From positions 1 through 32,278 of IMG/VR virus record IMGVR_UViG_3300047510_000541: a stretch of 32,278 bases of DNA; one strand, given 5' to 3'. This DNA comes from a virus. The position numbers and the translations under genes are program-made. This document shows, one piece after another, positions 4,935-30,061 of the stretch (the stretch's first letter is position 1; every line of letters begins with the position of its first letter). A model generated the notes under the pieces. The model saw only the letters and a list, made by a program, of their open reading frames with translations. It was not told the origin of the DNA and made no database searches.

Positions 4935-5342
4935 ATGGCATTACCTAACGGCGCAGGCGGTTACCAAGTTGGTGACGGCAATCTGACTGAAGCTCAACTC
5001 ACCGTACAAACCATCCCCGCAACTTTGACCGGCGACACCACTTTGACCGCCGCTCAAGTGGCGGTTGGTTTGGTTGTTTGTGCAAAAGCCTCGGACGCTA
5101 CATTGACAGTTACGTTGCCCACCGCAGCGTTGCTTGATGCAGCTATTCCTAGCGCAAAAGTTGGTTCAGCTTTTGAATTGACCATTTGCAACAACAACAA
5201 CACCGGCTCATCGTCTACCGTTCCTGTTACCACAGGCACTGGTATTACGATCTTTGGCTCTGTGACTGTCCCACGTTTTGGTGCGCACACGTACCGTTTC
5301 GTGCGTACTGGTGACGCAGCCTATTCGGCGTTTTTGAAGTAA
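4935..5342 (+). CDS. Capsid-associated beta-rich protein (candidate decoration protein)
   Basis: 135 residues from the ATG at 4935, which has AAAGGAAATTATC upstream. An earlier in-frame ATG at 4887 lies within the coat 3' hairpin and is unlikely. The sequence is a run of beta strands: ATLTVTLPTAALLDA, FELTICNNNNTGSS, TGITIFGSVTVPRFG and HTYRFVRTGDAAYSAF. The pattern resembles trimeric decoration or fibre caps on phage heads and tails. It lies between the coat and a head-fibre-like gene, flanked by hairpins on both sides. The role in the capsid is inferred from order and composition. No catalytic motif is visible. Confidence 0.6.
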   Translation: MALPNGAGGYQVGDGNLTEAQLTVQTIPATLTGDTTLTAAQVAVGLVVCAKASDATLTVTLPTAALLDAAIPSAKVGSAFELTICNNNNTGSSSTVPVTTGTGITIFGSVTVPRFGAHTYRFVRTGDAAYSAFLK

Positions 5343-8008: not shown

Positions 8009-9371
8009 CCCAAACGCAAACCCGACGCCCATCACGCCCCCCAGGGTGCCGTTGATTGACCCACGCACCGGGTTGATTGACCGAGCGTGGTACTTGTTCT
8101 TTTTGTCGCTCAATGAAGTTGCCACGGGGGTTATTGACGATTCGGGGCTTACGTTTAGTTCCGAGTCGCTGCTTGCGTCCTATGACGCCGCGCTTCGTGC
8201 GGTCAATCAAGAATTGCAGACGTTGCCGCCTGCAATTGATTATTCTGAAGATATCCTCAAGATCAGGCATGAAGGCGATTTACAGCCGTCGGCTGAAGTG
8301 GGCGAGTTGCAAGCGCTGATCAACCAAGTGCGTCAGCAACTTGAAACGCTGCCACGTCAAGATTTAGGCACGCTGTCGGCAGTTAACATTGATTGGGTTC
8401 CTTACCTTGGCTTTGACACCGCGCCACCTTGGATCGGCACGACTGCGGGCCAATTCTGGTTTGATTCGGCTACGGGCTCATTCAACGCCAAGATGGGCAA
8501 CAACAACATCACTCAGCAAGTGGGCGAAGAAATTTTTGTTTACGGCAAAGCGTCTGCCGCTGTTACCGATTCACCCTTGCAAATTATCTATCACACAGGC
8601 GTTGTAGGGGCCAGCGGCGTTATTACGTTTGCGCCCACGATTGCGGGGATTACAGACGCCAATGCAATTGTCGGCGTAGCTACTGAATCCTTGGCTCTTA
8701 ATGATTTTGGGCGGGCTACTGTTTTTGGAACAGTGCGCGGCATTACAACCAACGGCACTGCTTTTGGTGAAGTTTGGGCTGATGACGACCCAATTTGGTA
8801 CAACCCAGTAACAGGCAACCCGACCAAAGTTGAGCCTGTTGCCCCTAACATTAAGATACAAGTTGGGTATGTAATTAAAGCGGGGGCAGGCGGTTCTGGG
8901 TCTTTTCACGTTGAAATCATCCGAGGCTCAAAACTTGGCGGCACTGACTCAAATGTTGAGTTTGGCACGTTGGCCAACGGCGACTTGATTCAGTACAGCA
9001 CTTCATTGGGCTATTGGACAAACGTCACGCCAGCGTCTGTGTTGGCGGCGGCGTCAGGAGCGCCGGTCACCAAAACCGCCAACTTTACGGTTGCCAACGG
9101 TGAAACTTGGTTTATCAACAATAAGACCGGGTCAACTTGCACCGTGACTTTGCCCGCCGCATCGTCATGGACTGGCCGCACCTTGACTTTTAAGAACATG
9201 CAAGCGCAGACTTTGGTGTCTGCGTCAAGCAACGTTGTGCCCATTGACAGCACGTCTGCTGGCACAGCAATCCTCTTGGCAGTTGCAGGCAATTGGGCGA
9301 CAATGGTGTCTGACGGCACCAATTGGGTCATCATGCAACAAGCCGCTAATAACTGCCTCTTATTGGAGTAA
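8001..9371 (+). CDS. Large virion protein, probable tail/needle or fibre-hub component
   Basis: 456 residues, overlapping the gp10 gene by eight bases. The N-terminus PTPITPPRVPLIDPRTGLI then RAWYLFFLSLNEV is a motif I recognise from podovirus tail proteins that follow gp10. A helical, possibly coiled-coil segment follows (about residues 60-120, with EVGELQALINQVRQQLETL). The rest is beta-rich (residues 140-450), ending in a C-terminal cap with TCTVTLPAASSWTGRTLTFKN. The layout of attachment head, coiled coil and beta tip fits a fibre or tail needle. P22 has gp26 in this genome position, but I do not see clear gp26 sequence identity. Confidence 0.6.
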   Translation: MPSPNANPTPITPPRVPLIDPRTGLIDRAWYLFFLSLNEVATGVIDDSGLTFSSESLLASYDAALRAVNQELQTLPPAIDYSEDILKIRHEGDLQPSAEVGELQALINQVRQQLETLPRQDLGTLSAVNIDWVPYLGFDTAPPWIGTTAGQFWFDSATGSFNAKMGNNNITQQVGEEIFVYGKASAAVTDSPLQIIYHTGVVGASGVITFAPTIAGITDANAIVGVATESLALNDFGRATVFGTVRGITTNGTAFGEVWADDDPIWYNPVTGNPTKVEPVAPNIKIQVGYVIKAGAGGSGSFHVEIIRGSKLGGTDSNVEFGTLANGDLIQYSTSLGYWTNVTPASVLAAASGAPVTKTANFTVANGETWFINNKTGSTCTVTLPAASSWTGRTLTFKNMQAQTLVSASSNVVPIDSTSAGTAILLAVAGNWATMVSDGTNWVIMQQAANNCLLLE

Positions 9372-12276: not shown

Positions 12277-14421
12277 ATGGCCGATCTAGCGTCAATTCTT
12301 GCCGACCCTAATTTTGTCAACGCCAATCCTGCTACTAAGCAGGCTATTTTTGACAAATGGGCACCGCAAGACCCTAACTTTGCAAATGCTAACCTTGCAA
12401 CGCAATCAGCCATTAAACAAAAATTTGGCCTTACTGCTATTGCGCTTGAAATGCCTAAGCCCGCAGAAGGTATGCCGGCTGCGCGGCAAGAGCCGACTAC
12501 ATACGAAAAAGTTCGTGGATTTGTTGCTCCTACTGTTGAAGCATTGGGCGCGGCTGGCGGCGCGGCGTTAGGTACGCCGTTGGGCCCGTTAGGTATTGTG
12601 GGCGGCGCAGGCTTGGGCTACGGCATGGCCAAAGAAGCGCTTAACTTGGCCGACATATACATAGGCGGCAAAGCACCACGCACCGGAGCTGAAGCGGTTG
12701 TAGAGCCGGTTAGGAATGTTCTTGAAGGCGCAACGTATGAGGCCGGCGGGCGCGTTGCGGGGAATTTGATTTCGGCAGGCGTAGGTAAAGTTGCTGATTT
12801 GCGCCAGTTGGCGCAGCAGAAAGCAGCCAAGCTGGCGCAAGCCGCCATAGGCAATGACTTACCCCAAGTAGTCAATGCATTGCGAACGGCGTCGCCAACA
12901 AGTAGCGTCGCTGAGTTGACCGCTAAAATTGAAAACCCCACTTGGCAAGCGTTGATTCAAGATGCACTGCAAAAAGACCCGCAGTTCTTGCGCAAAATGC
13001 GTTTGATGGGCGAAGCGGAATCCACCAATGTGTTAGCGCAGTTGGCCGGTGGCACGACCGCTACGGCGACCAGAGGCACCACAGAAGCTGCCAAGAATGC
13101 GCTTACCACAATTACCGGCCCAGCCCGTGAAGCGGCGTTGGCGCGCGGAAACCTAGGTAAAACAGTAGCCGCGTATGAAACTGAAGCTGAACGATTGGCG
13201 CGCGCTGCGGCAGATAAAGTTGAAGAAGTACGGTTTCTTGAGCGGGCTAAAGGCGTGGCCGAGCAGGCCGCAGGCCGCGTGCCGGTTCGTGCGCCCAGCG
13301 GCGAGCGCATTGGCCAACCCCTTATGCCTGGACGATACAGCTATCCCGCTGACTTGGCCAAGCAGGCAGAAAATTGGTCTTCTCAAGCGGCTACTGGTTC
13401 GCTTGATCTGGGCCAAGGCGCGCGCTTTGCGCAAGGCGCTGCGGACGCCATGCGGGCGGTTGGAATTAAACCGCTAGAAGCAAAGCCATTGATTAAACAA
13501 ATCACCGCCGTGTTGTCTGACCCTAAATCGGGTATCCCCGGCAACGACGTGCTTGAAGGTGCGGTTAAAAATGTGGCGAATGACATCACCAAGTGGACTA
13601 ACAGCGCCGGCATAGTTGACATGTACGCGCTAGAAGCAATCCGCAAAAATTCGGTTAACGCAGCCATTCAGCAACTGCGCCCTGGCGCAGACGCTACAAC
13701 TCAGCGTAATTTGGCGGCGAGTGTTTTGGCCAAGATTCGCCCCTTAATTGACGACGCTATTGAGTCGTCAGGCGGCGTGGGGTGGAAACAATACAACGCT
13801 GACTACACCAAAGGCATGCAAAGAATCGCCGAGAAAAAATTGGCCGGTGAAGCGCTTCAAATGTGGAAGACCAACAAAGACGCATTTGTGCGCTTGGTGC
13901 AAAACGAATCGCCTGAAACAGTTGAAAAAATCCTTGGCAAAGGAAATTACAACATCGCTACTGAAGTGGCCGATAGCACGTTAAAACTGCTAGAAATGCA
14001 AGCGCAAAAACATCTGACGCAAATGTCGGTAAAAGAACAAGCCACTGAAGGTCAAAAGGCGTTGACGCAATTGGTTTCCCAACAGACGTCAAACTTCAGA
14101 TTTCCCTCTTGGCTTAATTTCTGGACTACGGCGGGCAATCAAGCCATCAGCGAGTTGGAAAAGAAAATTGGCGCTAAGAGCATGAAGGTGCTGACCGAAG
14201 CTGCCAAAAACCCTCAAACCATGGCCGACTTGTTGGAAAGATTGCCCGGCGCGGAACGTAATCGTGTTGCGCAATTGTTGTCCAACCCTCAAGGGTTGAC
14301 GCAGAAACTGACTGCACCTGCGGCCATTGGCGTTACCAATGCTTTGGCCTCTGACAACCAAAACGCATTAAACGAACCATTTCGCGTAGAAATTCGCGGT
14401 ATCGGATCAACTGGACGATGA
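12277..14421 (+). CDS. Large internal virion / DNA ejection protein (gp16 slot)
   Basis: 714 residues, ribosome site AAAGGATTGAT. The N-terminus has two copies of a short helical repeat (DPNFVNANPATKQAIFDKW, then DPNFANANLATQSAIKQKF). Residues about 80-115 are glycine/alanine-rich and hydrophobic (EALGAAGGAALGTPLG, IVGGAGLGYGMAKEAL), consistent with membrane insertion during ejection. The remainder is long helices, with a WKQYNADYTKGMQRIAE-like segment. Size, order and composition match the third ejection protein of P22-like phages. No lysozyme or transglycosylase motif was found. Confidence 0.65.
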   Translation: MADLASILADPNFVNANPATKQAIFDKWAPQDPNFANANLATQSAIKQKFGLTAIALEMPKPAEGMPAARQEPTTYEKVRGFVAPTVEALGAAGGAALGTPLGPLGIVGGAGLGYGMAKEALNLADIYIGGKAPRTGAEAVVEPVRNVLEGATYEAGGRVAGNLISAGVGKVADLRQLAQQKAAKLAQAAIGNDLPQVVNALRTASPTSSVAELTAKIENPTWQALIQDALQKDPQFLRKMRLMGEAESTNVLAQLAGGTTATATRGTTEAAKNALTTITGPAREAALARGNLGKTVAAYETEAERLARAAADKVEEVRFLERAKGVAEQAAGRVPVRAPSGERIGQPLMPGRYSYPADLAKQAENWSSQAATGSLDLGQGARFAQGAADAMRAVGIKPLEAKPLIKQITAVLSDPKSGIPGNDVLEGAVKNVANDITKWTNSAGIVDMYALEAIRKNSVNAAIQQLRPGADATTQRNLAASVLAKIRPLIDDAIESSGGVGWKQYNADYTKGMQRIAEKKLAGEALQMWKTNKDAFVRLVQNESPETVEKILGKGNYNIATEVADSTLKLLEMQAQKHLTQMSVKEQATEGQKALTQLVSQQTSNFRFPSWLNFWTTAGNQAISELEKKIGAKSMKVLTEAAKNPQTMADLLERLPGAERNRVAQLLSNPQGLTQKLTAPAAIGVTNALASDNQNALNEPFRVEIRGIGSTGR

Positions 14422-14642
14422 TGGATTACCAAGTACTTTTCAACATCGCCGTGGCCATCGCCGGGTTTTTCGGCGGGTGGACGCTCAACCGCATCTACAT
14501 CGCCATCGACCGGCTGGATAGCGACGTGCGCAGCATGCCCCACGACTACGTGAGCCGCGACGACTACAAGGCCGACATCCGCGAGATGCGCGACTTGCTG
14601 GGCAAGATTTTCGACAAGCTCGACAACAAAGCCGACAAATGA
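14421..14642 (+). CDS. Small membrane protein of lysis block (holin- or spanin-like)
   Basis: 73 residues. Two adjacent ATGs exist (14418 and 14421); I prefer 14421, which has GGA five bases upstream and overlaps the previous stop by one base. An N-terminal hydrophobic helix (VLFNIAVAIAGFFGGWTL) is followed by a charged helical part (DRLDSDVRSMP, then DYKADIREMRDLLGKIFDKLDN) with heptad character. One transmembrane helix plus a coiled coil fits a pinholin, an antiholin or an inner-membrane spanin-type subunit. It stands two genes before a recognisable holin. Its exact role is inferred from position. Confidence 0.6.
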   Translation: MDYQVLFNIAVAIAGFFGGWTLNRIYIAIDRLDSDVRSMPHDYVSRDDYKADIREMRDLLGKIFDKLDNKADK

Positions 14643-22041: not shown

Positions 22042-22051
22042 GTGAGATGGT

Positions 22052-22070
22052 GGGGCTTCGGCCCTGCCTT
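22052..22070 (+). terminator. Hairpin between replication genes (UUCG loop)
   Basis: GGGGC (22052-22056), loop TTCG, GCCCT (22061-22065, with one G-T pair), followed by GCCTTTTCC. The stem is strong but the T run is short, and the methyltransferase ATG follows at 22075. It probably acts as a partial terminator or masks weak start signals, since no Shine-Dalgarno sequence precedes that ATG. Confidence 0.5.
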
Positions 22071-22074
22071 TTCC

Positions 22075-22662
22075 ATGAAGATTTTAAATTTGTACGCCGG
22101 TATCGGCGGTAACCGTAGCCTATGGGGGGGGTGTGAAGTGACGGCAGTCGAATACTCACCCGAGATCGCCAAGGTCTACGCGCAGTTATACCCACAGGAT
22201 ACTGTTGTGGTCGGCGACGCAGTTGCGTATTTGGAAGCGCACTATGCGGAGTTTGACTTTATATGGGCCAGCCCGCCTTGCCCAAGCCATGGCCAGTACC
22301 GGCACAACGTCGGCGTGATCGGCAAAGGCTTTGCACCCATCATGCCTGACATGACGCTGTACGCGCAGATCGTGTTTTTGCAACACTACGCCAAGGGCAA
22401 ATGGGTTGTCGAAAACGTCAAGCCATACTATGAGCCTCTGGTCAGGCCCACGTTTGAAATGCAACGCCATCTTTTCTGGTCAAACTTTGAAGTAGCGCCG
22501 CGCAGGTTTGATAAGGCTGACATCCGACACAAGAACAAGATTTCAGACTTTGACGGCCATGAGATAGTCGCCGCCAGCAAGATACCAAACAAAAGGCAAG
22601 CGCTGCGCAACTGCGTTGATGCTGAGTTGGGCTTGCATATTTTGACGGCGGCAACGGCATGA
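22075..22662 (+). CDS. Miniature cytosine-C5-type DNA methyltransferase
   Basis: 195 residues from the ATG at 22075; the frame is open to 22042 but that part is hairpin. C5-methyltransferase motifs: motif I NLYAGIGGN (5-13), motif IV SPPCPSH with the catalytic Cys69, motif VI VVENV (111-115), and a motif X-like end LRNCVDAELGLHIL. The target-recognition region between motifs VI and X is very short, so this is a compact phage form. It could protect phage DNA from host restriction. Codons 17-19 contain a run of eight G, a possible slippage site. The start lacks a ribosome site. The stop overlaps the polymerase start by four bases. Confidence 0.82.
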   Translation: MKILNLYAGIGGNRSLWGGCEVTAVEYSPEIAKVYAQLYPQDTVVVGDAVAYLEAHYAEFDFIWASPPCPSHGQYRHNVGVIGKGFAPIMPDMTLYAQIVFLQHYAKGKWVVENVKPYYEPLVRPTFEMQRHLFWSNFEVAPRRFDKADIRHKNKISDFDGHEIVAASKIPNKRQALRNCVDAELGLHILTAATA

Positions 22663-24959: not shown

Positions 24960-27230
24960 TTGGAATTTCTGGAATTTATCACAAAATTAGCCCCAAATGG
25001 CGAGACAGCGCTGATTGTCAGACAAAAACCACAGTTGAAAGACGGCGAGATACAACTCCACGCCGATGGGGCGGTCAAATGTACATGGCCGGCATTCTTG
25101 CCGAGCAAAGGCACCCGAGAAGGTCAAGCCTGGTACGCCAACACCGCCAGCTTTGTCATCGACCGATTCACCGAGGGCCGCGTGTCAGCGTCCGCTGCCA
25201 ACTGCGAATACATCTTGGTGATGATGCTGGACGACATCGGCACCAAGTCCAAGACGCCGCCGCTTGAGCCGACCTGGATCATGGAGACGTCCCCCGGTTC
25301 ATTCCAGTGGGGCTACGCCTTCAGCGATCAGCCGACCAAGGCCGAGTTCAGCGCGGCCATCAAAGCCATCGCCGAGGCGGGCTACACCGACCCCGGTGCC
25401 TGCAACCCGGTGCGCAACTTCCGACTGCCTGGGTCGATCAACCTAAAGCCGGGCCGCGACAACTTCGCCGCGCGCCTGGTGTGTTTTAATCCAGAACGCG
25501 AATACACACTAGGTGACATTTGCGCCGCCTTGGACGTCACGCCGGTCGAACCCGACTCGCTCACCCTGCGCCCTATCCGACTGTCGGATGATGGCGCGGA
25601 CGATGTGATGGCGTGGCTCTCCGGTCAGGGTCTGCTCTTGTCCAAACCCAACAACGAAGGCTGGGCGGGCGTCATCTGCCCCAATGGTGCCGAGCACACA
25701 GACGGCAACCCAGAGGGGCGCTATATGCCCGCCAACCGGGCGTATTGCTGCCTGCACTCGCATTGCGTTGACTTTGATTCCCGCGCCTTTTTGACGTGGG
25801 TGGCCGACCAAGGTGGCCCCGCCCACAATCCGGGCTTGCGTGAGGAACTGCTCACCCAAGCCATGGAGTCGGCGCTCTCCAAGCTCGCCCCCACCGCCGA
25901 TTACCCCGATGAGGCCGCCCGCGTCATCGCCGAGGTGGAGCGCAAAGAGCTTGGCCGGGTTGAGAAAAACGAGTGGTTTGAGCGTTTTGCCTACGTCCAA
26001 ACCGATGATGCCTTTTTCGACATGACCGACCGCCGAGAGGTGTCGCGCAACACCTTCAACGCCCTTTACCGGCACATTGACTGCAAGTCGATTCACAACG
26101 CCAAGCGCCGCATTGAGGCCGCAACGTCCTTTGATGAGAACCGCCAAGGCAAGGGCGCCAAGTCTTTGGTGGGCATCACCTACGCCGCCGGGGCGTCCGT
26201 GCTGGTGGCCCGTGAGGGCCAGGTCTATGGCAACCGCTGGCGTGACGCCCGCCCCACGCCGGTGGCCGGTGACCCGGCTTTGTGGCTGGCGCACGTTGAG
26301 CGCATGGTGCCCGAGCGTTTCGAGCGCGAGCACTTGCTAAACGCCTTGGCCCACAAAGTCCAATTTCCAGGCCACAAGATCAACCATGCCATCCTTTTGG
26401 GTGGCAACCATGGCAGCGGCAAAGATACCCTGTTCGCCCCCTTCTTTTGGGCCATTGGTGGGCCGTCCAAGCACAATTGCTCATTGGTCAAAAATGAAGA
26501 GCTCACAAGCCAATGGGGCTACGCGCTCGAGTGCGAAGTGATGGAGATCGCCGAGTTACGCCAGGCCGAGGCCAAAGACCGCCGAGCGCTTGAGAACACC
26601 CTTAAGCCCATCATCGCCGCGCCCCCTGAGCTGCTCATGGTCAACCGCAAGGGGCTCCACCCCTACATGGCCTTGAACCGGGTCTTCGTAATCGCGTTTT
26701 CAAATGAGCGCGTGGCCATCTCGATCCCCAGCGAAGACCGCCGGTGGTTTGTCCTGTGGGCTGACGCCCCCAAGCTCCCAGAAGCTCAGGCGGTGAGCCT
26801 GTGGAATTGGTACCAACACCGGGGCGGCTTTGAGGCCGTGGCCCACTACCTCCACACCCGTGACGTGAGCGCTTGGAACCCGAACGCAGCGCCCCCCATG
26901 ACTGAGGCTAAGTCCATCATGGTCGAGCACGGCATGAGCGGCGCTGAGTCGTTTCTGGTTGACCTCATGCGCCGGCGTGCGGGTGAGTTCTCCCGTGGGG
27001 TCTGTGGTGGCCCCTTTTATGGCCTTTGCGACCGCTTGCAGGGCATCGCCCCGGGTAACGTTAAGGTCGTCCAGGCCGCGCTATTGCACGCCTTCAAGGA
27101 GGCTGGCTGGATCGACATGGGCCGCATCAAGTCCAGAGACCATGACACCAAAAAGCACGTTTTCTGCGCCCCTGAGTTGAGCGAGTATTCGCGCAGCGAT
27201 TTAAGGCGCATGGTCGAGCCTTCGGCATAA
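24960..27230 (+). CDS. Primase-helicase (RepB-like/AEP primase plus SF3-type helicase)
   Basis: 756 residues from a TTG at 24960, with AAAGGAG nine bases upstream. The N-terminal third has MMLDDIGTKS (88-97) and RNFRLPGSINLKP (152-164), as in RepB/AEP-type primases that act without the TOPRIM fold. A Cys/His-containing region (ANRAYCCLHSHCVDFDSRAF) may bind metal. The helicase has Walker A GGNHGSGKDT (481-490, Lys488), a Walker B-like VMEIAEL (527-533) and a sensor/arginine region SIPSEDRRWFVLW, as in the DUF5906/NrS-1-type helicase family. It would prime and unwind at the fork for the family A polymerase next door. Confidence 0.85.
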   Translation: MEFLEFITKLAPNGETALIVRQKPQLKDGEIQLHADGAVKCTWPAFLPSKGTREGQAWYANTASFVIDRFTEGRVSASAANCEYILVMMLDDIGTKSKTPPLEPTWIMETSPGSFQWGYAFSDQPTKAEFSAAIKAIAEAGYTDPGACNPVRNFRLPGSINLKPGRDNFAARLVCFNPEREYTLGDICAALDVTPVEPDSLTLRPIRLSDDGADDVMAWLSGQGLLLSKPNNEGWAGVICPNGAEHTDGNPEGRYMPANRAYCCLHSHCVDFDSRAFLTWVADQGGPAHNPGLREELLTQAMESALSKLAPTADYPDEAARVIAEVERKELGRVEKNEWFERFAYVQTDDAFFDMTDRREVSRNTFNALYRHIDCKSIHNAKRRIEAATSFDENRQGKGAKSLVGITYAAGASVLVAREGQVYGNRWRDARPTPVAGDPALWLAHVERMVPERFEREHLLNALAHKVQFPGHKINHAILLGGNHGSGKDTLFAPFFWAIGGPSKHNCSLVKNEELTSQWGYALECEVMEIAELRQAEAKDRRALENTLKPIIAAPPELLMVNRKGLHPYMALNRVFVIAFSNERVAISIPSEDRRWFVLWADAPKLPEAQAVSLWNWYQHRGGFEAVAHYLHTRDVSAWNPNAAPPMTEAKSIMVEHGMSGAESFLVDLMRRRAGEFSRGVCGGPFYGLCDRLQGIAPGNVKVVQAALLHAFKEAGWIDMGRIKSRDHDTKKHVFCAPELSEYSRSDLRRMVEPSA

Positions 27231-27257
27231 AAAAGGGTTCCGCCTACGGCGTGGACA

Positions 27258-27284
27258 TAAAAAAAGGGCCCCGCGAGGGGCCCT
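27258..27284 (-). terminator. Strong intrinsic terminator for the leftward small-gene operon
   Basis: Read on the minus strand: AGGGGCCCC-type arm (27284-27277), loop TCGC, matching arm (27272-27265), then seven T. On the plus strand it reads AGGGCCCC, GCGA, GGGGCCCT. The 8-bp GC stem plus T run is a textbook terminator, placed 18 bases past the last small leftward ORF and close to the end of the rightward replication operon, so it separates two converging operons. Confidence 0.8.
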
Positions 27285-27301
27285 GTGAGGGTTGGCAACT
27301 G

Positions 27302-27361
27302 CTAGAGATCCAGCAGCAGCGCCAGTATAGCGGCCAGAATGACCGCGCAGATCAACGCCAT
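27302..27361 (-). CDS. Possible 19-residue membrane micropeptide
   Basis: ATG at 27361, overlapping the end of the upstream 73-residue gene by ten bases, with a purine-rich GGTGGC nearby. The peptide is MALICAVILAAILALLLDL, almost a pure transmembrane helix, ending just before the operon terminator. A hydrophobic peptide in exactly this spot could be a coincidence of GC-rich codons, so I keep this low. A membrane micropeptide also occurs elsewhere in this operon and in the other leftward operon. Confidence 0.3.
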   Translation of the reverse strand: MALICAVILAAILALLLDL

Positions 27362-27573
27362 GCCGCCACCAATGGCGCGGCATCATAAGTAGGCGCCGGG
27401 CATGCCACCGTAAAAAGCCCCGCGCCCCGCTTGATGCGCCCCCAGGCGTCTTTTCTGTTTTGGTTTACGAGCTCGCCCCGCTTGACCGCCCCATAGACTT
27501 GATCGCGCGTGAACCCTTCCGCTTCGATCTCCACCATGGTGCGCGGTGTCTCGCAAAAATCAATTAAGGTCAT
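27352..27573 (-). CDS. Small winged-helix-like protein
   Basis: 73 residues. It begins MTLIDFCETPRTMVEIEAEG, then FTRDQVYGAVKRGELVNQNR and a WGRIKRGAGLF segment. The LIDFC...PRTMxEI...GFTRDQVYxAVKRGELVN pattern fits a short helix-turn-helix with a beta wing (about residues 10-50), as in small DNA-binding proteins found in phages. It may regulate the operon or bind host DNA. Its ATG overlaps the stop of the tiny ORF before it by four bases. Confidence 0.65.
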   Translation of the reverse strand: MTLIDFCETPRTMVEIEAEGFTRDQVYGAVKRGELVNQNRKDAWGRIKRGAGLFTVACPAPTYDAAPLVAAWR

Positions 27574-27653
27574 GGCGCGTCCCCCTTGGGTGGCGGTGCC
27601 GGCGGTGGCGCGTATCGGCGCAAAATGTCTTCAAATATCGGATGCAGCATCAT
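27570..27653 (-). CDS. Possible 27-residue peptide
   Basis: Two adjacent ATGs (27653 and 27650). The translation is MMLHPIFEDILRRYA then PPPAPPPKGDAP. It lies between two better-supported genes: its start is 23 bases inside the end of the 96-residue gene, and its TGA overlaps the next ATG by four bases, as elsewhere in this operon. The helix plus proline-rich tail is unlike random frames, but the small size keeps confidence low. Confidence 0.35.
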   Translation of the reverse strand: MMLHPIFEDILRRYAPPPAPPPKGDAP

Positions 27654-27921
27654 CGGCCTCCCATCCCCAGGGTATACCATCGGCCACAGTTAACGTGGTG
27701 CTCAGGGGCCGCCAGTCCCACTTAGTGAGCCCCTTGTTTAAGGTCTCATACGCGGCCACATATTCGGCGGTGCTCATGCTGGCCCCATGGGGCGGATAGA
27801 ACCGCTTAACGGTGCCCTTGGATTTCATGGGCTTATGCTTACCGGTGCACTTGGCGTGGTGCGCGAAAATGTCAACGCGATCGGTTTTGTAGGTGGTTTT
27901 TCCAATTTTTACGGTTTGCAT
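27631..27921 (-). CDS. Small hypothetical protein (96 residues)
   Basis: ATG preceded by GGAGAATAAACC. The sequence begins MQTVKIGKTTYKTDRVDIFA, has a HHAKCTGKHKPMKSKGTVKR basic stretch and then a FYPPHGASMSTAEYVAAYE helix, ending in IPWGWEADDAA. The basic middle could bind nucleic acid. No family is recognised. It is a mid-operon gene with its own ribosome site. The following tiny ORF overlaps its end. Confidence 0.65.
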   Translation of the reverse strand: MQTVKIGKTTYKTDRVDIFAHHAKCTGKHKPMKSKGTVKRFYPPHGASMSTAEYVAAYETLNKGLTKWDWRPLSTTLTVADGIPWGWEADDAASDI

Positions 27922-27938
27922 GGTTTATTCTCCAAAAT

Positions 27939-28226
27939 TTAATAAGGGCGAAACACGGCAATGAGCCAAGCACTATCGGGAAACCCGTAGGACTCATGCC
28001 GCAGGTGCGCAGGGGGCTTATCAGTGCCCAAGGGGAATTTATACATTTCAACAAAGGCCAAACCTAAGTTTTTCAGAGTGTGGCTTAACTCTGAAAACTT
28101 ACCCTTAGCAACGGCAACGCATAAGAGGCCGGAACCGCCAGTGCCATGCGTCTCGCATTGCAGGGTATCGAGCACGCCATAAACCTCGAACCGCTTTTCA
28201 TAGGTTAATTCATAGAATGATTGCAT
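27939..28226 (-). CDS. Small hypothetical protein (95 residues)
   Basis: ATG preceded by AAGGAAATAAACC. It reads MQSFYELTYEKRFEVYGVLD, TLQCETHGTGGSGLLCVAVA, then KGKFSELSHTLKNLGLAFV and an aromatic end (PDSAWLIAVFRPY). Alternating strands and one helix suggest a small alpha/beta protein. The family is not recognised. The start lies 17 bases inside the preceding gene. Confidence 0.65.
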   Translation of the reverse strand: MQSFYELTYEKRFEVYGVLDTLQCETHGTGGSGLLCVAVAKGKFSELSHTLKNLGLAFVEMYKFPLGTDKPPAHLRHESYGFPDSAWLIAVFRPY

Positions 28227-28401
28227 GGTTTATTTCCTTGATGTTGAAGGGGCTGCAGTTAAGCTCCATTTGTTGACAATAGTCCGCGTGATCGGCATAA
28301 CCCGCGTCCGCGCAGAATTCGTCCAGCACGTCATTCAGTGACTCACTGCTAGACTCAAAAATTGTTGAGATACCGTTATCTGTCCAAATTTCATACTTCA
28401 T
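28210..28401 (-). CDS. Small acidic hypothetical protein
   Basis: 63 residues. It begins MKYEIWTDNGISTIFESSSE and continues SLNDVLDEFCADAGYADHAD then YCQQMELNCSPFN. It is strongly acidic with three Cys and an FCADAGYADHADYC motif. Acidic proteins of this kind from phage early operons can mimic DNA or bind host nucleases (known in other phages), but nothing here proves that. The start overlaps the previous stop by four bases. Confidence 0.65.
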   Translation of the reverse strand: MKYEIWTDNGISTIFESSSESLNDVLDEFCADAGYADHADYCQQMELNCSPFNIKEINHAIIL

Positions 28402-28571
28402 GCTGTCACCTCTTCAATTTCAGACGTTTCCCATTCGCCATATTGCGTGCATTCGCCACTGTTAGCGTCTACACGTTGCCACGCCATGGCCTCCGCCGCC
28501 TCTTCGCTTTCGGCCTCTATTTCATAGTGCACATAAGCGGTGTAAACCAGTGTTATTTGATAGGTTTTCAT
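28398..28571 (-). CDS. Small acidic protein, DpnD/PcfM-like pattern
   Basis: 57 residues from the ATG at 28571, whose start overlaps the upstream micro-gene stop by four bases; the frame is open to 28616. It reads MKTYQITLVYTAYVHYEIEA then ESEEAAEAMAWQRVD and ends TSEIEEVTA. The pattern of a beta strand, then YEIEAESEEAAxxxA, is shared by small proteins of the DpnD/PcfM type found in phages and plasmids. The acidic surface again invites a DNA-mimic idea, not proven. The stop overlaps the next start by four bases. Confidence 0.65.
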   Translation of the reverse strand: MKTYQITLVYTAYVHYEIEAESEEAAEAMAWQRVDANSGECTQYGEWETSEIEEVTA

Positions 28572-28657
28572 GGTGTCATATTCCAAAAATAAAGGGCAAA
28601 GGGCAGGCCAATGCAAAACGCAAAAGCCAAGGCATCAAAAAATTGTCGAATGGTCAT
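28568..28657 (-). CDS. 29-residue membrane micropeptide
   Basis: ATG at 28657 with GGGGAA upstream (spacing three bases). It reads MTIRQFFDALAFAFCIGLPF then ALYFWNMTP, a single predicted transmembrane helix with an N-terminal basic residue. Four-base ATGA overlaps tie it to both neighbours (starts 28657/stop 28654, and stop 28568/start 28571). The coupling supports translation. The function is unknown. Confidence 0.5.
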   Translation of the reverse strand: MTIRQFFDALAFAFCIGLPFALYFWNMTP

Positions 28658-28809
28658 AAGTTCCCCAGAAAAAAATGATCAAAATCAAACACAGCAACAT
28701 AGAACCCTTTGGGCCCAGCGTGCACCTCGTAAAGCCATGCATCATCATCCTGCGCGGCTAACGTGTCAGCGAGAGCCTGCGCGGCTCCCTTGGTGGTGTA
28801 GTAAGTCAT
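28654..28809 (-). CDS. Small hypothetical protein (51 residues)
   Basis: I chose the ATG at 28809 because it overlaps the preceding stop by four bases (ATGA), the rule in this operon; an ATG at 28845 in frame lies inside the neighbour. The sequence begins MTYYTTKGAAQALADTLAAQ, continues DDDAWLYEVHAGPKGFYVAV and ends FDFDHFFLGNL. A helix followed by two strands with an aromatic end suggests a small compact domain. No family is recognised. Confidence 0.65.
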   Translation of the reverse strand: MTYYTTKGAAQALADTLAAQDDDAWLYEVHAGPKGFYVAVFDFDHFFLGNL

Positions 28810-29078
28810 GCGTTGCAACACCCGCAACATGGCGCATCTTCGCACCGGCCGTTTTTATTCCGATAGTATTCCCGGCCCCCTGAATTCCATATGTGCGAAA
28901 CCCCATGGGACTGTGCGAGATATTGACCCGTGCGGGTTTCATATTCACAGTCGCCCGGTTCGGCGGTTATCCATGCCTGCCGGGTGATAGTGCAATATTG
29001 GATCTCATCGCCCGGATAGATCGGCGCGCCGGTGCGCGCGTCTTTGCCCTTAAATTTTGCCTTCATGGTTTTAATCAT
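28806..29078 (-). CDS. Small Cys-rich hypothetical protein (90 residues)
   Basis: ATG at 29078 with GAAGGGTAAACC upstream. A second ATG four codons later has no ribosome site. The text KAKFKGKDARTGAPIYPGDEI is a motif I know from small phage and bacterial proteins with a treble-clef-like or SH3-like start. The C-terminus CEDAPCCGCCNA holds a dense Cys cluster (C-x4-CC-x-CC) likely to bind zinc or iron. The function is unknown. Confidence 0.65.
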   Translation of the reverse strand: MIKTMKAKFKGKDARTGAPIYPGDEIQYCTITRQAWITAEPGDCEYETRTGQYLAQSHGVSHIWNSGGREYYRNKNGRCEDAPCCGCCNA

Positions 29079-29163: not shown

Positions 29164-29934
29164 TTAGGCGTAATGAACCCCTTTGATCTGAGTAAACCCG
29201 GTTAAATCGCGTTTTGCTTTGCCCTTGGCATATAAGGCGACAACAACTGACTTTGGTTCAATGTGGCGCACGTCGGTGTCATCTCCATCAACAACAACCC
29301 AGCCCCTAAAATTCTCAGGGATATCGGCGCGTTTTTGGAAAACCACAGCAACCCTAGAATTATTGGGATTTTGCAAGCCCTTGATGCTAATGGGCTTGGG
29401 TGTTATCGCACTAAATGAATAGGTGAGATCATAATTTCCCGATGTTTTCCCGGTCAAATTACGGGCTGGGTGTTTTGTATAGTCATAAAATTGGACATCG
29501 GGAAATAACTCAAAGATGTTTTTACCGTCATGCACAATGAGATTCTCGTACGGGATATCACTTGTGCCATTGGGGCGCACCAAAGGGGTAAACCCTAATT
29601 TTCTAGCCTTGTTTCTTAGTGTCCATACATCGGCAGCAAAGGACAACAAAAAGCTTTGTTGATGATCATAGTAGAACCGCGTTTTCGCTATGCGTGCCAA
29701 TTGCACGCTATTAAACGCGCCCCGGCCTGCAGACTCTAAACACCCAGCCATGCACCCAGCCAATTGAGCCATAGCGCAAATTGTGTGGTCGGGCTTGAGA
29801 TACACAATACCGGTTAAGTAACCGATCTTCTCGCCTTTGATTGTCTTAGCACTAGATTCACCTAAAATTGTTTTGTAGGTTAAACCTAGGCTCTTGAGAA
29901 TGCGTTTATAGGGATTTGTGGGCAAATTGGACAT
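29164..29934 (-). CDS. Gp88-family phage protein (function unknown)
   Basis: 256 residues from the ATG at 29934 (GAGAGGT eight bases upstream); the frame is open to 30024 without a ribosome site. Features match the Gene product 88 family: YLTGIVYLKPDH (39-50), a Cys cluster C53, C61 and C65 in AGCMAGCLESAGRGAF, LARIAKTRFY, then VRPNGTSDIPYE (119-130) and FPDVQFYDYTK. The Cys spacing (x7 and x3) is not that of classical radical-SAM proteins. It is the first gene of the leftward operon next to the candidate origin. The family is widespread in phages and mycobacteriophages, and I know of no settled function. Confidence 0.8.
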   Translation of the reverse strand: MSNLPTNPYKRILKSLGLTYKTILGESSAKTIKGEKIGYLTGIVYLKPDHTICAMAQLAGCMAGCLESAGRGAFNSVQLARIAKTRFYYDHQQSFLLSFAADVWTLRNKARKLGFTPLVRPNGTSDIPYENLIVHDGKNIFELFPDVQFYDYTKHPARNLTGKTSGNYDLTYSFSAITPKPISIKGLQNPNNSRVAVVFQKRADIPENFRGWVVVDGDDTDVRHIEPKSVVVALYAKGKAKRDLTGFTQIKGVHYA

Positions 29935-29965
29935 GGTGTTGACCTCTCGTTTACTGTAGTTTATG

Positions 29966-29985
29966 CCGACGCGGTTTTGCGTCGG
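29966..29985. other. Hairpin in the gp88 leader
   Basis: CCGACGC (29966-29972), six-base loop GGTTTT, GCGTCGG (29979-29985). It lies 32 bases upstream of the gp88 start, in the expected 5' leader. Outer bases ATGC/GCAT can extend the stem with a bulge. It may be an attenuator or mRNA 5' protector. No T run for termination is seen. Confidence 0.4.
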
Positions 29986-30061
29986 TTCTGCATAGTAAGA
30001 CAATCCCGAACATAACGCACGCACTATATTTTTTGCCCTTCAATTATGTGGGGTTATTGTG

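Follow-up and report, generated by a model that had tools for sequence, protein, structure and literature searches.

The locus studied here raises the question of whether a chain of ten tiny leftward open reading frames (ORFs), packed at positions 27302–29078 on the minus strand of an IMG/VR virus record (IMGVR_UViG_3300047510_000541), consists of real genes, and what such genes would do. The whole record of 32,278 bases is referred to below as the window. The evidence is comparative throughout, and many of the relative contigs are fragments. We consider it probable that the block is a mosaic accessory operon with two membrane micropeptides destined for the inner membrane, the terminal one (J19) packing through an Ala-xxx-Ala stripe. 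The block would be the main part of a single leftward accessory operon, coupled in translation, in a podovirus whose head genes are P22-like, and single-transmembrane (TM) products occupy two positions in it, (i) a slot coupled by ATGA to B51, filled by one of three types, and (ii) J19, of 19–20 codons, before the terminator.

All ten ORFs proposed by a first-pass annotation of the window were confirmed, with lengths of 90, 51, 29, 57, 63, 95, 96, 27, 73 and 19 residues (Table 1). Five junctions (90/51, 51/29, 29/57, 57/63 and 27/73) are exact ATGA overlaps; 73/19 overlap by 10 nucleotides (nt), 63/95 overlap by 17 nt, and 95/96 are separated by 17 nt. Homologues of each ORF were gathered from viral contigs and compared with the window codons as the reference. 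Every ORF had homologues (38 distinct ones for the 29-mer, 76 contigs for the 19-mer), and change was mostly synonymous in all ten, with non-synonymous to synonymous ratios (pN/pS) mostly of 0.0–0.5, where values near 1 would be expected of frames that are not genes. Since each has homologues with mostly synonymous change, the ten ORFs are, judged by these comparisons, genuine genes under purifying selection. H27 was mechanically listed as 36 residues, but its true start lies at an internal ATGATG, where the homology begins, leaving 27 or 26 residues. The composition described in the first-pass annotation was also borne out: the two nearly pure TM helices are both conserved membrane micropeptides (C29 and J19), two proteins (D57 and E63) are acidic, and A90 ends in a Cys cluster.

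Table 1. Features of the leftward block, with homologues found in viral contigs, pN/pS against the window, and the number of the 93 distinct J19 contexts in which each gene was present.
Feature	Position	Strand	Description	Homologues	pN/pS	Contexts (of 93)
A90	28806–29078	−	90 residues, core gene, C-terminal Cys cluster CEDAPCCGCC	78 in fetched loci	0.10–0.43	65
B51	28654–28809	−	51 residues, soluble; stop overlaps (ATGA) the start of the membrane micropeptide	27	0.08–0.25	68
C29	28568–28657	−	29-residue single-TM micropeptide, one of three mutually exclusive types	38 distinct	0.12–0.41	
D57	28398–28571	−	Acidic, 57 residues, cargo	9	0.12–0.74	8
E63	28210–28401	−	Acidic, 63 residues, cargo	2 (75–77% identity)	0.16	2
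F95	27939–28226	−	95 residues, cargo	3 (82–86% identity), in loci without the rest of the block	0.16–0.19	1
G96	27631–27921	−	Basic, 96 residues, core gene, conserved HAKCTGKHKxxKSKG core	29	0.19–0.51 (alignment made)	66
H27	27570–27653	−	Pro-rich micropeptide, 26/27 residues, (M)MLHPIFEDILRRYAPPP...	38 distinct	0–0.14 (close relatives)	34
I73	27352–27573	−	73 residues, predicted winged helix		0.02–0.06, up to 0.22 (close relatives)	54
J19	27302–27361	−	Membrane micropeptide MALICAVILAAILALLLDL, 19 codons, last gene of the operon			
GCTATACT	27324–27331	−	Nucleotide-invariant segment, J19 codons 11–13 (TATAAT/TATACT)			
RNA hairpin CTGCT..AGCAG	27294–27316	−	Over the J19 stop codon, then conserved TTGCC			
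Intrinsic terminator of the operon	27258–27284	−	8-bp stem and T tract			

A search pattern built from the J19 peptide, with wobble bases left free, matched 76 stretches in viral contigs. In 67 of 67 distinct loci the matching ORF had exactly 19 codons, and an intrinsic terminator came after it in every contig that was long enough to show one. To escape J19-based ascertainment, we also counted from the primase, which gave 80 primase-linked loci. All 71 evaluable loci whose primases are at least 83% identical contained J19 as the last gene before the terminator, convergent with the primase and 34–83 nt from its stop (70 recognised by the pattern, and L306 with MLTICAALIAVILAVLLGL). Among seven loci at 72–75% primase identity, two (L332 and L336) had a recognisable J19 relative, four had none, and L330 had another TM micropeptide; the latter, MWYALAAYALQLILGRRKK, stands in J19's place on the minus strand at ~5036–5170, just past the primase end. 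A second clade, found with a pattern that excluded the ATA codon, comprised 11 contigs, all with 20-codon ORFs of type VLIVLAALVAAILAILLDLD, convergent with a primase 70–82% identical; it keeps the same peptide pattern (pN/pS 0.19). Moreover, seven loci encode a peptide identical to that of the window with 4–10 synonymous and 0 non-synonymous differences (10 versus 0 in L084). By these counts J19 is the block's most constant gene, yet at 19 codons it falls under the usual gene-caller minimum; conserved phage functions can hide in frames as small as this.

The upstream gene, whichever it was, ended 10 nt inside J19 in 79 of the 93 contexts, and these upstream genes are unrelated. Their proteins usually end in ..WR, with the stop codon (TRA) formed by J19 codons 3–4; because this stop lies there, J19 codon 3 is NTR in 64/64 unique coding sequences. 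Such a layout points to termination-reinitiation coupling, by which J19 would be made from whichever gene precedes it. Where H27 stands directly before J19, a good AAGGGGG Shine-Dalgarno sequence was observed just upstream.

The 39 distinct J19 peptides have invariant Ala at positions 6, 10 and 11, the invariance at 10 and 11 being partly imposed by the search pattern, whereas Ala occurs in 38 at position 14 and in 31 at position 2. Position 18 is Gly, Asn or Asp, and elsewhere mainly Ile, Leu, Val, Ala, Cys and Met replace one another. Side-chain volume was most strongly periodic at 90°, i.e., four residues (P = 0.0075, maximised over the angle). Small-xxx-small stripes serve as packing faces of membrane helices, and the four-residue periodicity of Ala and volume looks like such a face. 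We propose that J19 enters the inner membrane after release, post-translationally, since the finished 19-mer would still be inside the ribosome. It would act not catalytically but by helix–helix packing through the Ala2/6/10/14 stripe, with itself or with a membrane protein of the host or phage. Its fixed length, many natural variants and obvious packing stripe make it a convenient test case.

Several observations weigh against this proposal. At a fixed angle of 100° the volume periodicity gave P = 0.07, and the Ala stripe could reflect the composition of a short hydrophobic helix. Across the two main sub-groups, J19 pN/pS against the window reached 0.9, because Ile/Leu/Val/Ala exchanges are scored as non-synonymous and the counts are tiny. 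The block proteins match no family of known function. Finally, as the conserved wobble bases described below show, some of the J19 DNA is maintained for non-peptide reasons.

In the main clade, J19 codons 10–12 are nearly always GCC GCT ATA (GCT in 63/64 and ATA in 63/64 unique coding sequences), whereas ATA accounts for 10.5% of the Ile codons in this phage and Ala14 uses all four Ala codons. GCTATAMT and AGCAGTTGCC are near-invariant while adjacent wobble bases vary. The partner of CTGCT (codons 16–17) is AGCAG, located on the stop codon or after it and before TTGCC, and 99% of helix cells in this five-pair core are paired. The stem extension is set by codon 17 and the choice of stop codon, which covary: three extra pairs form in 48/81 sequences, whereas 5000 shuffles within residue-18 classes gave 26 on average and never more than 39. 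As tests of this kind are inflated by relatedness and only sequences with AGCAGTTGCC were aligned, we take the covariation as moderate evidence. A second stem, of codons 6–7 with 10–11, was paired in 93%, mostly forced by the Ala codons, and is not claimed.

These patterns could mean that the conserved 3′ product is an RNA, in which an internal −10/RNA motif gives rise to a structured RNA of ~60 nt (hairpin, TTGCC and terminator) and the ORF is a passenger. The near-invariant segments amid varying wobble bases, the seven nt between TATAMT and the hairpin start, and the covariation of the stem extension with the stop codon would all fit, but we regard this explanation as distinctly unlikely. 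The second clade never has the motif, and in L133 and L278 both of its parts are lost while the peptide is kept; the peptide is thus independent of the RNA, and the RNA element is a main-clade addition. Both the fixed length of 19–20 codons and the constraint at the amino-acid level speak for a protein product. TATAMT was also rejected as a promoter −10 element, as no −35 box lies at the right spacing and a promoter scan gave no match there. Outside J19, GCTATAMT...GCAGTTGCC gave dozens of chance matches, and a stricter pattern left one sequence type, about the chance expectation. That type (GCTATAAT-N7-CTGCT..AGCAGTTGCC with a terminator; L192:1618–1690, L207 and L242) follows a scaffold gene in an unrelated phage and shares the layout of the J19 RNA motif, the peptide being absent. 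With only a single sequence type, it is probably a coincidence.

A T run follows J19 in 89/89 loci, whereas the opposite strand has one in only 7/89. In the window, no rightward terminator was found between the primase stop and J19 (27230–27450, plus strand), the nearest weak candidate (27433–27450) lying inside I73. As a rightward T run is missing downstream of the primase in 82/89 loci, transcripts of the primase may extend across J19 in antisense. J19 might be a regulatory (leader or arrest) peptide, in which ribosomes at the stop codon set terminator efficiency, and hence antisense transcription into the convergent primase. In both clades 0–20 nt separate the J19 stop from the terminator downstream (the two abut in the second), 19–20 codons fit the length of the exit tunnel, and the primase stop is close by without its own T run. 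We give this idea little credence, given that there is no downstream gene on the same strand to control, and that the constraint follows a membrane-helix pattern and not the residues of arrest peptides.

The same antisense cover, provided by a convergent primase without its own terminator, would be compatible with J19 or C29 being a type-I-toxin-like membrane peptide, held down by the read-through tail of the primase mRNA. In E. coli, the 19-residue toxin IbsC consists of a single helix, is controlled by an antisense RNA and acts in the bacterial inner membrane (PMC8309996). J19 resembles the Ibs family in its ~19 residues, single hydrophobic helix and near lack of charges; it differs in closing a phage operon with coupled translation and in its Ala stripe. 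No dedicated antisense promoter was found near J19, and coupling to an upstream gene is unlike the translation of type I toxin mRNAs. As no antisense RNA dedicated to J19 turned up and its toxicity is only putative, we did not file J19 as an Ibs-like toxin and judge such a role improbable. Small bacterial membrane proteins (e.g., YohP) and predicted intergenic microproteins are likewise short and single-helix, lack a catalytic domain, and are thought to work by binding other proteins (PMC12719787, PMC11188072). Unlike the YohP-type proteins, J19 and C29 are phage-borne and hold fixed operon positions, at one of which sequence types are exchanged.

That exchange takes place at the stop codon of B51. 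ATGA was observed there in 76/76 distinct B51 loci, and in 75/76 the frame starting in it encodes a single hydrophobic helix of 23–29 residues. The C29 type accounts for 22 of these loci and a 27-residue MRDIFAALIIAAALTVCALAYFDVLIK type for 30. A third type of 23–28 residues, with an LDLFIWR end, occupies 22, or 23 with the L330 variant. All three types show purifying selection, with pN/pS of 0.24, 0.21 and 0.11. Exactly one type was present in 85 of the 93 contexts, and two never occurred together. Judged by eye, the types share no obvious alignment past hydrophobicity and an aromatic C-terminal part, suggesting alleles that have diverged strongly or else replacements without homology. The slot is in effect a natural positional-replacement experiment.

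The working pairs are likely B51 plus the membrane peptide coupled to it, and I73 plus J19. Given these soluble-plus-membrane coupled pairs and the mosaic cargo slot, we infer that membrane-level modulation of the host (exclusion, lysis timing or defence) is the most likely class of function. A bolder version, which we consider rather unlikely, holds that the operon has a dedicated position where phages swap unrelated membrane micropeptides doing one job, and that J19 is a bifunctional frame and RNA regulating the convergent primase. If true, a single 57-nt frame would hold both a core membrane micropeptide and, in its 3′ half, a structured RNA, possibly as a short independent transcript.

Relatives keep the gene order A90-B51-(TM micropeptide)-[insert slot]-G96-H27-I73-J19, with one exception to A90-B51-G96-H27-I73-J19. 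The B51-to-G96 gap measures 73–96 nt in 45/55 loci, where it holds a single gene, versus 736 nt in the window; D57, E63 and F95 are, by this comparison, insertions of swapped-in cargo. One might extend this to the whole block and see in it ordinary cargo, i.e., a hypervariable phage region of small ORFs with no special logic, since D57, E63, F95 and Gp88 come and go. However, gene order is conserved, the TM types exclude one another at one position, and the terminal microgene is near-universal, which makes this view very unlikely and largely excludes it for the core. The first-pass description of an accessory block thus holds for D57, E63, F95 and the TM types, whereas the core (A90, B51, G96 and J19) resembles a backbone operon more than it does optional cargo. 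The Gp88-family gene named there as the upstream neighbour is present in the window (29164–30024) but in only 4/93 J19 contexts. Copies of up to 95% identity occur in phages that have nothing else of the block, so that this gene was exchanged independently; an internal ATG near 29934 probably marks its true start. The shared TAAACC-ATG leader was found before three block ORFs (29076, 28224 and 27919) and one rightward gene at 9369. In relatives it stands behind AAGGG/GGAG, so that it looks like an ordinary initiation context and is a mild signal.

Scans against Pfam, NCBIfam and PADLOC assigned no family of known function to the block proteins (J19 is too short for these scans) and gave no match for most of them, in keeping with the suggestion that several are undescribed. 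The C-terminal part of A90 matches phrog_5664 (E 5e-8) and phrog_2656, both PHROGs of unknown function. D57 weakly resembles DpnD/PcfM (PF14207; 16.6 bits, under the cut-off of 25). For I73, which the first-pass annotation had taken for a winged helix, the AlphaFold2 model (H-H-H-E-E; H13–19, H23–31, E35–41, E47–56) had a pLDDT (predicted local distance difference test) score of 83 and agrees with such a predicted fold. Its closest PDB look-alikes are the winged helices of PadR, TFE and MarR, with many such and all at E > 0.1; a PDB sequence search with I73 gave no match. The G96 prediction reached a pLDDT of 47, with no usable model. The H27 segment (M)xHPIFxxxLxPY/WxPP occurs either as a stand-alone peptide of 26–27 residues or as the N-terminus of differing longer proteins in relatives, and would thus be a portable short motif, in the manner of short binding motifs. 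Fused forms lie upstream of J19 in L084, L102, L190, L253 and other loci.

A role of the block in host takeover or anti-defence is plausible, but none of the analyses supported it, and the block proteins gave no match to a defence-related family in PADLOC (which covers defence and not all anti-defence families), NCBIfam or Pfam above the cut-off. The early takeover cassettes of T4, T7 and SPO1 consist of tightly packed tiny genes that vary among relatives. The block shares this density and variability but differs in its conserved core genes and order, and matches no known takeover factor. Pinholins and antiholins are short TM peptides with small-residue packing motifs, which J19 resembles, although it has only 19 residues, one helix and no recognised lysis genes adjoining. 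J19 lacks the location beside endolysin or spanin genes expected of a holin or pinholin, the leftward block adjoining the primase and Gp88, and a lysis-type lipoprotein (phrog_462) lying in the rightward block at 14418–14642. The phage small-gene predictions of Fremin et al. 2022 (cited in PMC11188072) are said to give comparative evidence for very short phage genes; the present work describes an arrangement (two TM positions, a terminal microgene and an RNA overlap).

In the genome, the operon is flanked by the Gp88-family gene on one side and the convergent primase on the other. The scaffold, major head protein and head closure genes match P22-like podovirus families, and the replication block encodes an exonuclease, a DNA polymerase and a 756-residue primase-type protein with DUF5906. 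Neither J19 nor a primase relative was found in the GTDB bacterial genome set. A DNA search of isolated phage records with the 3′ end of the block gave chance matches only, none convincing; the J19 family thus appears to be known from metagenomes only, the catalogue mentioned above aside. Rfam and tRNA searches of the window gave no match. The nearest named relatives, DSL-LC05 (lake) and Podoviridae ctNMl277 (spring), are both metagenome-assembled phages; the host of DSL-LC05 is a prediction only (PMC10611076), and no J19-like annotation stands beside its primase. Elsewhere in the window, positions 22042–22662 encode a 206-residue protein whose match to the C-5 cytosine DNA methylase family (PF00145) is limited to the first 112 positions of the latter, possibly a truncated or split methyltransferase.

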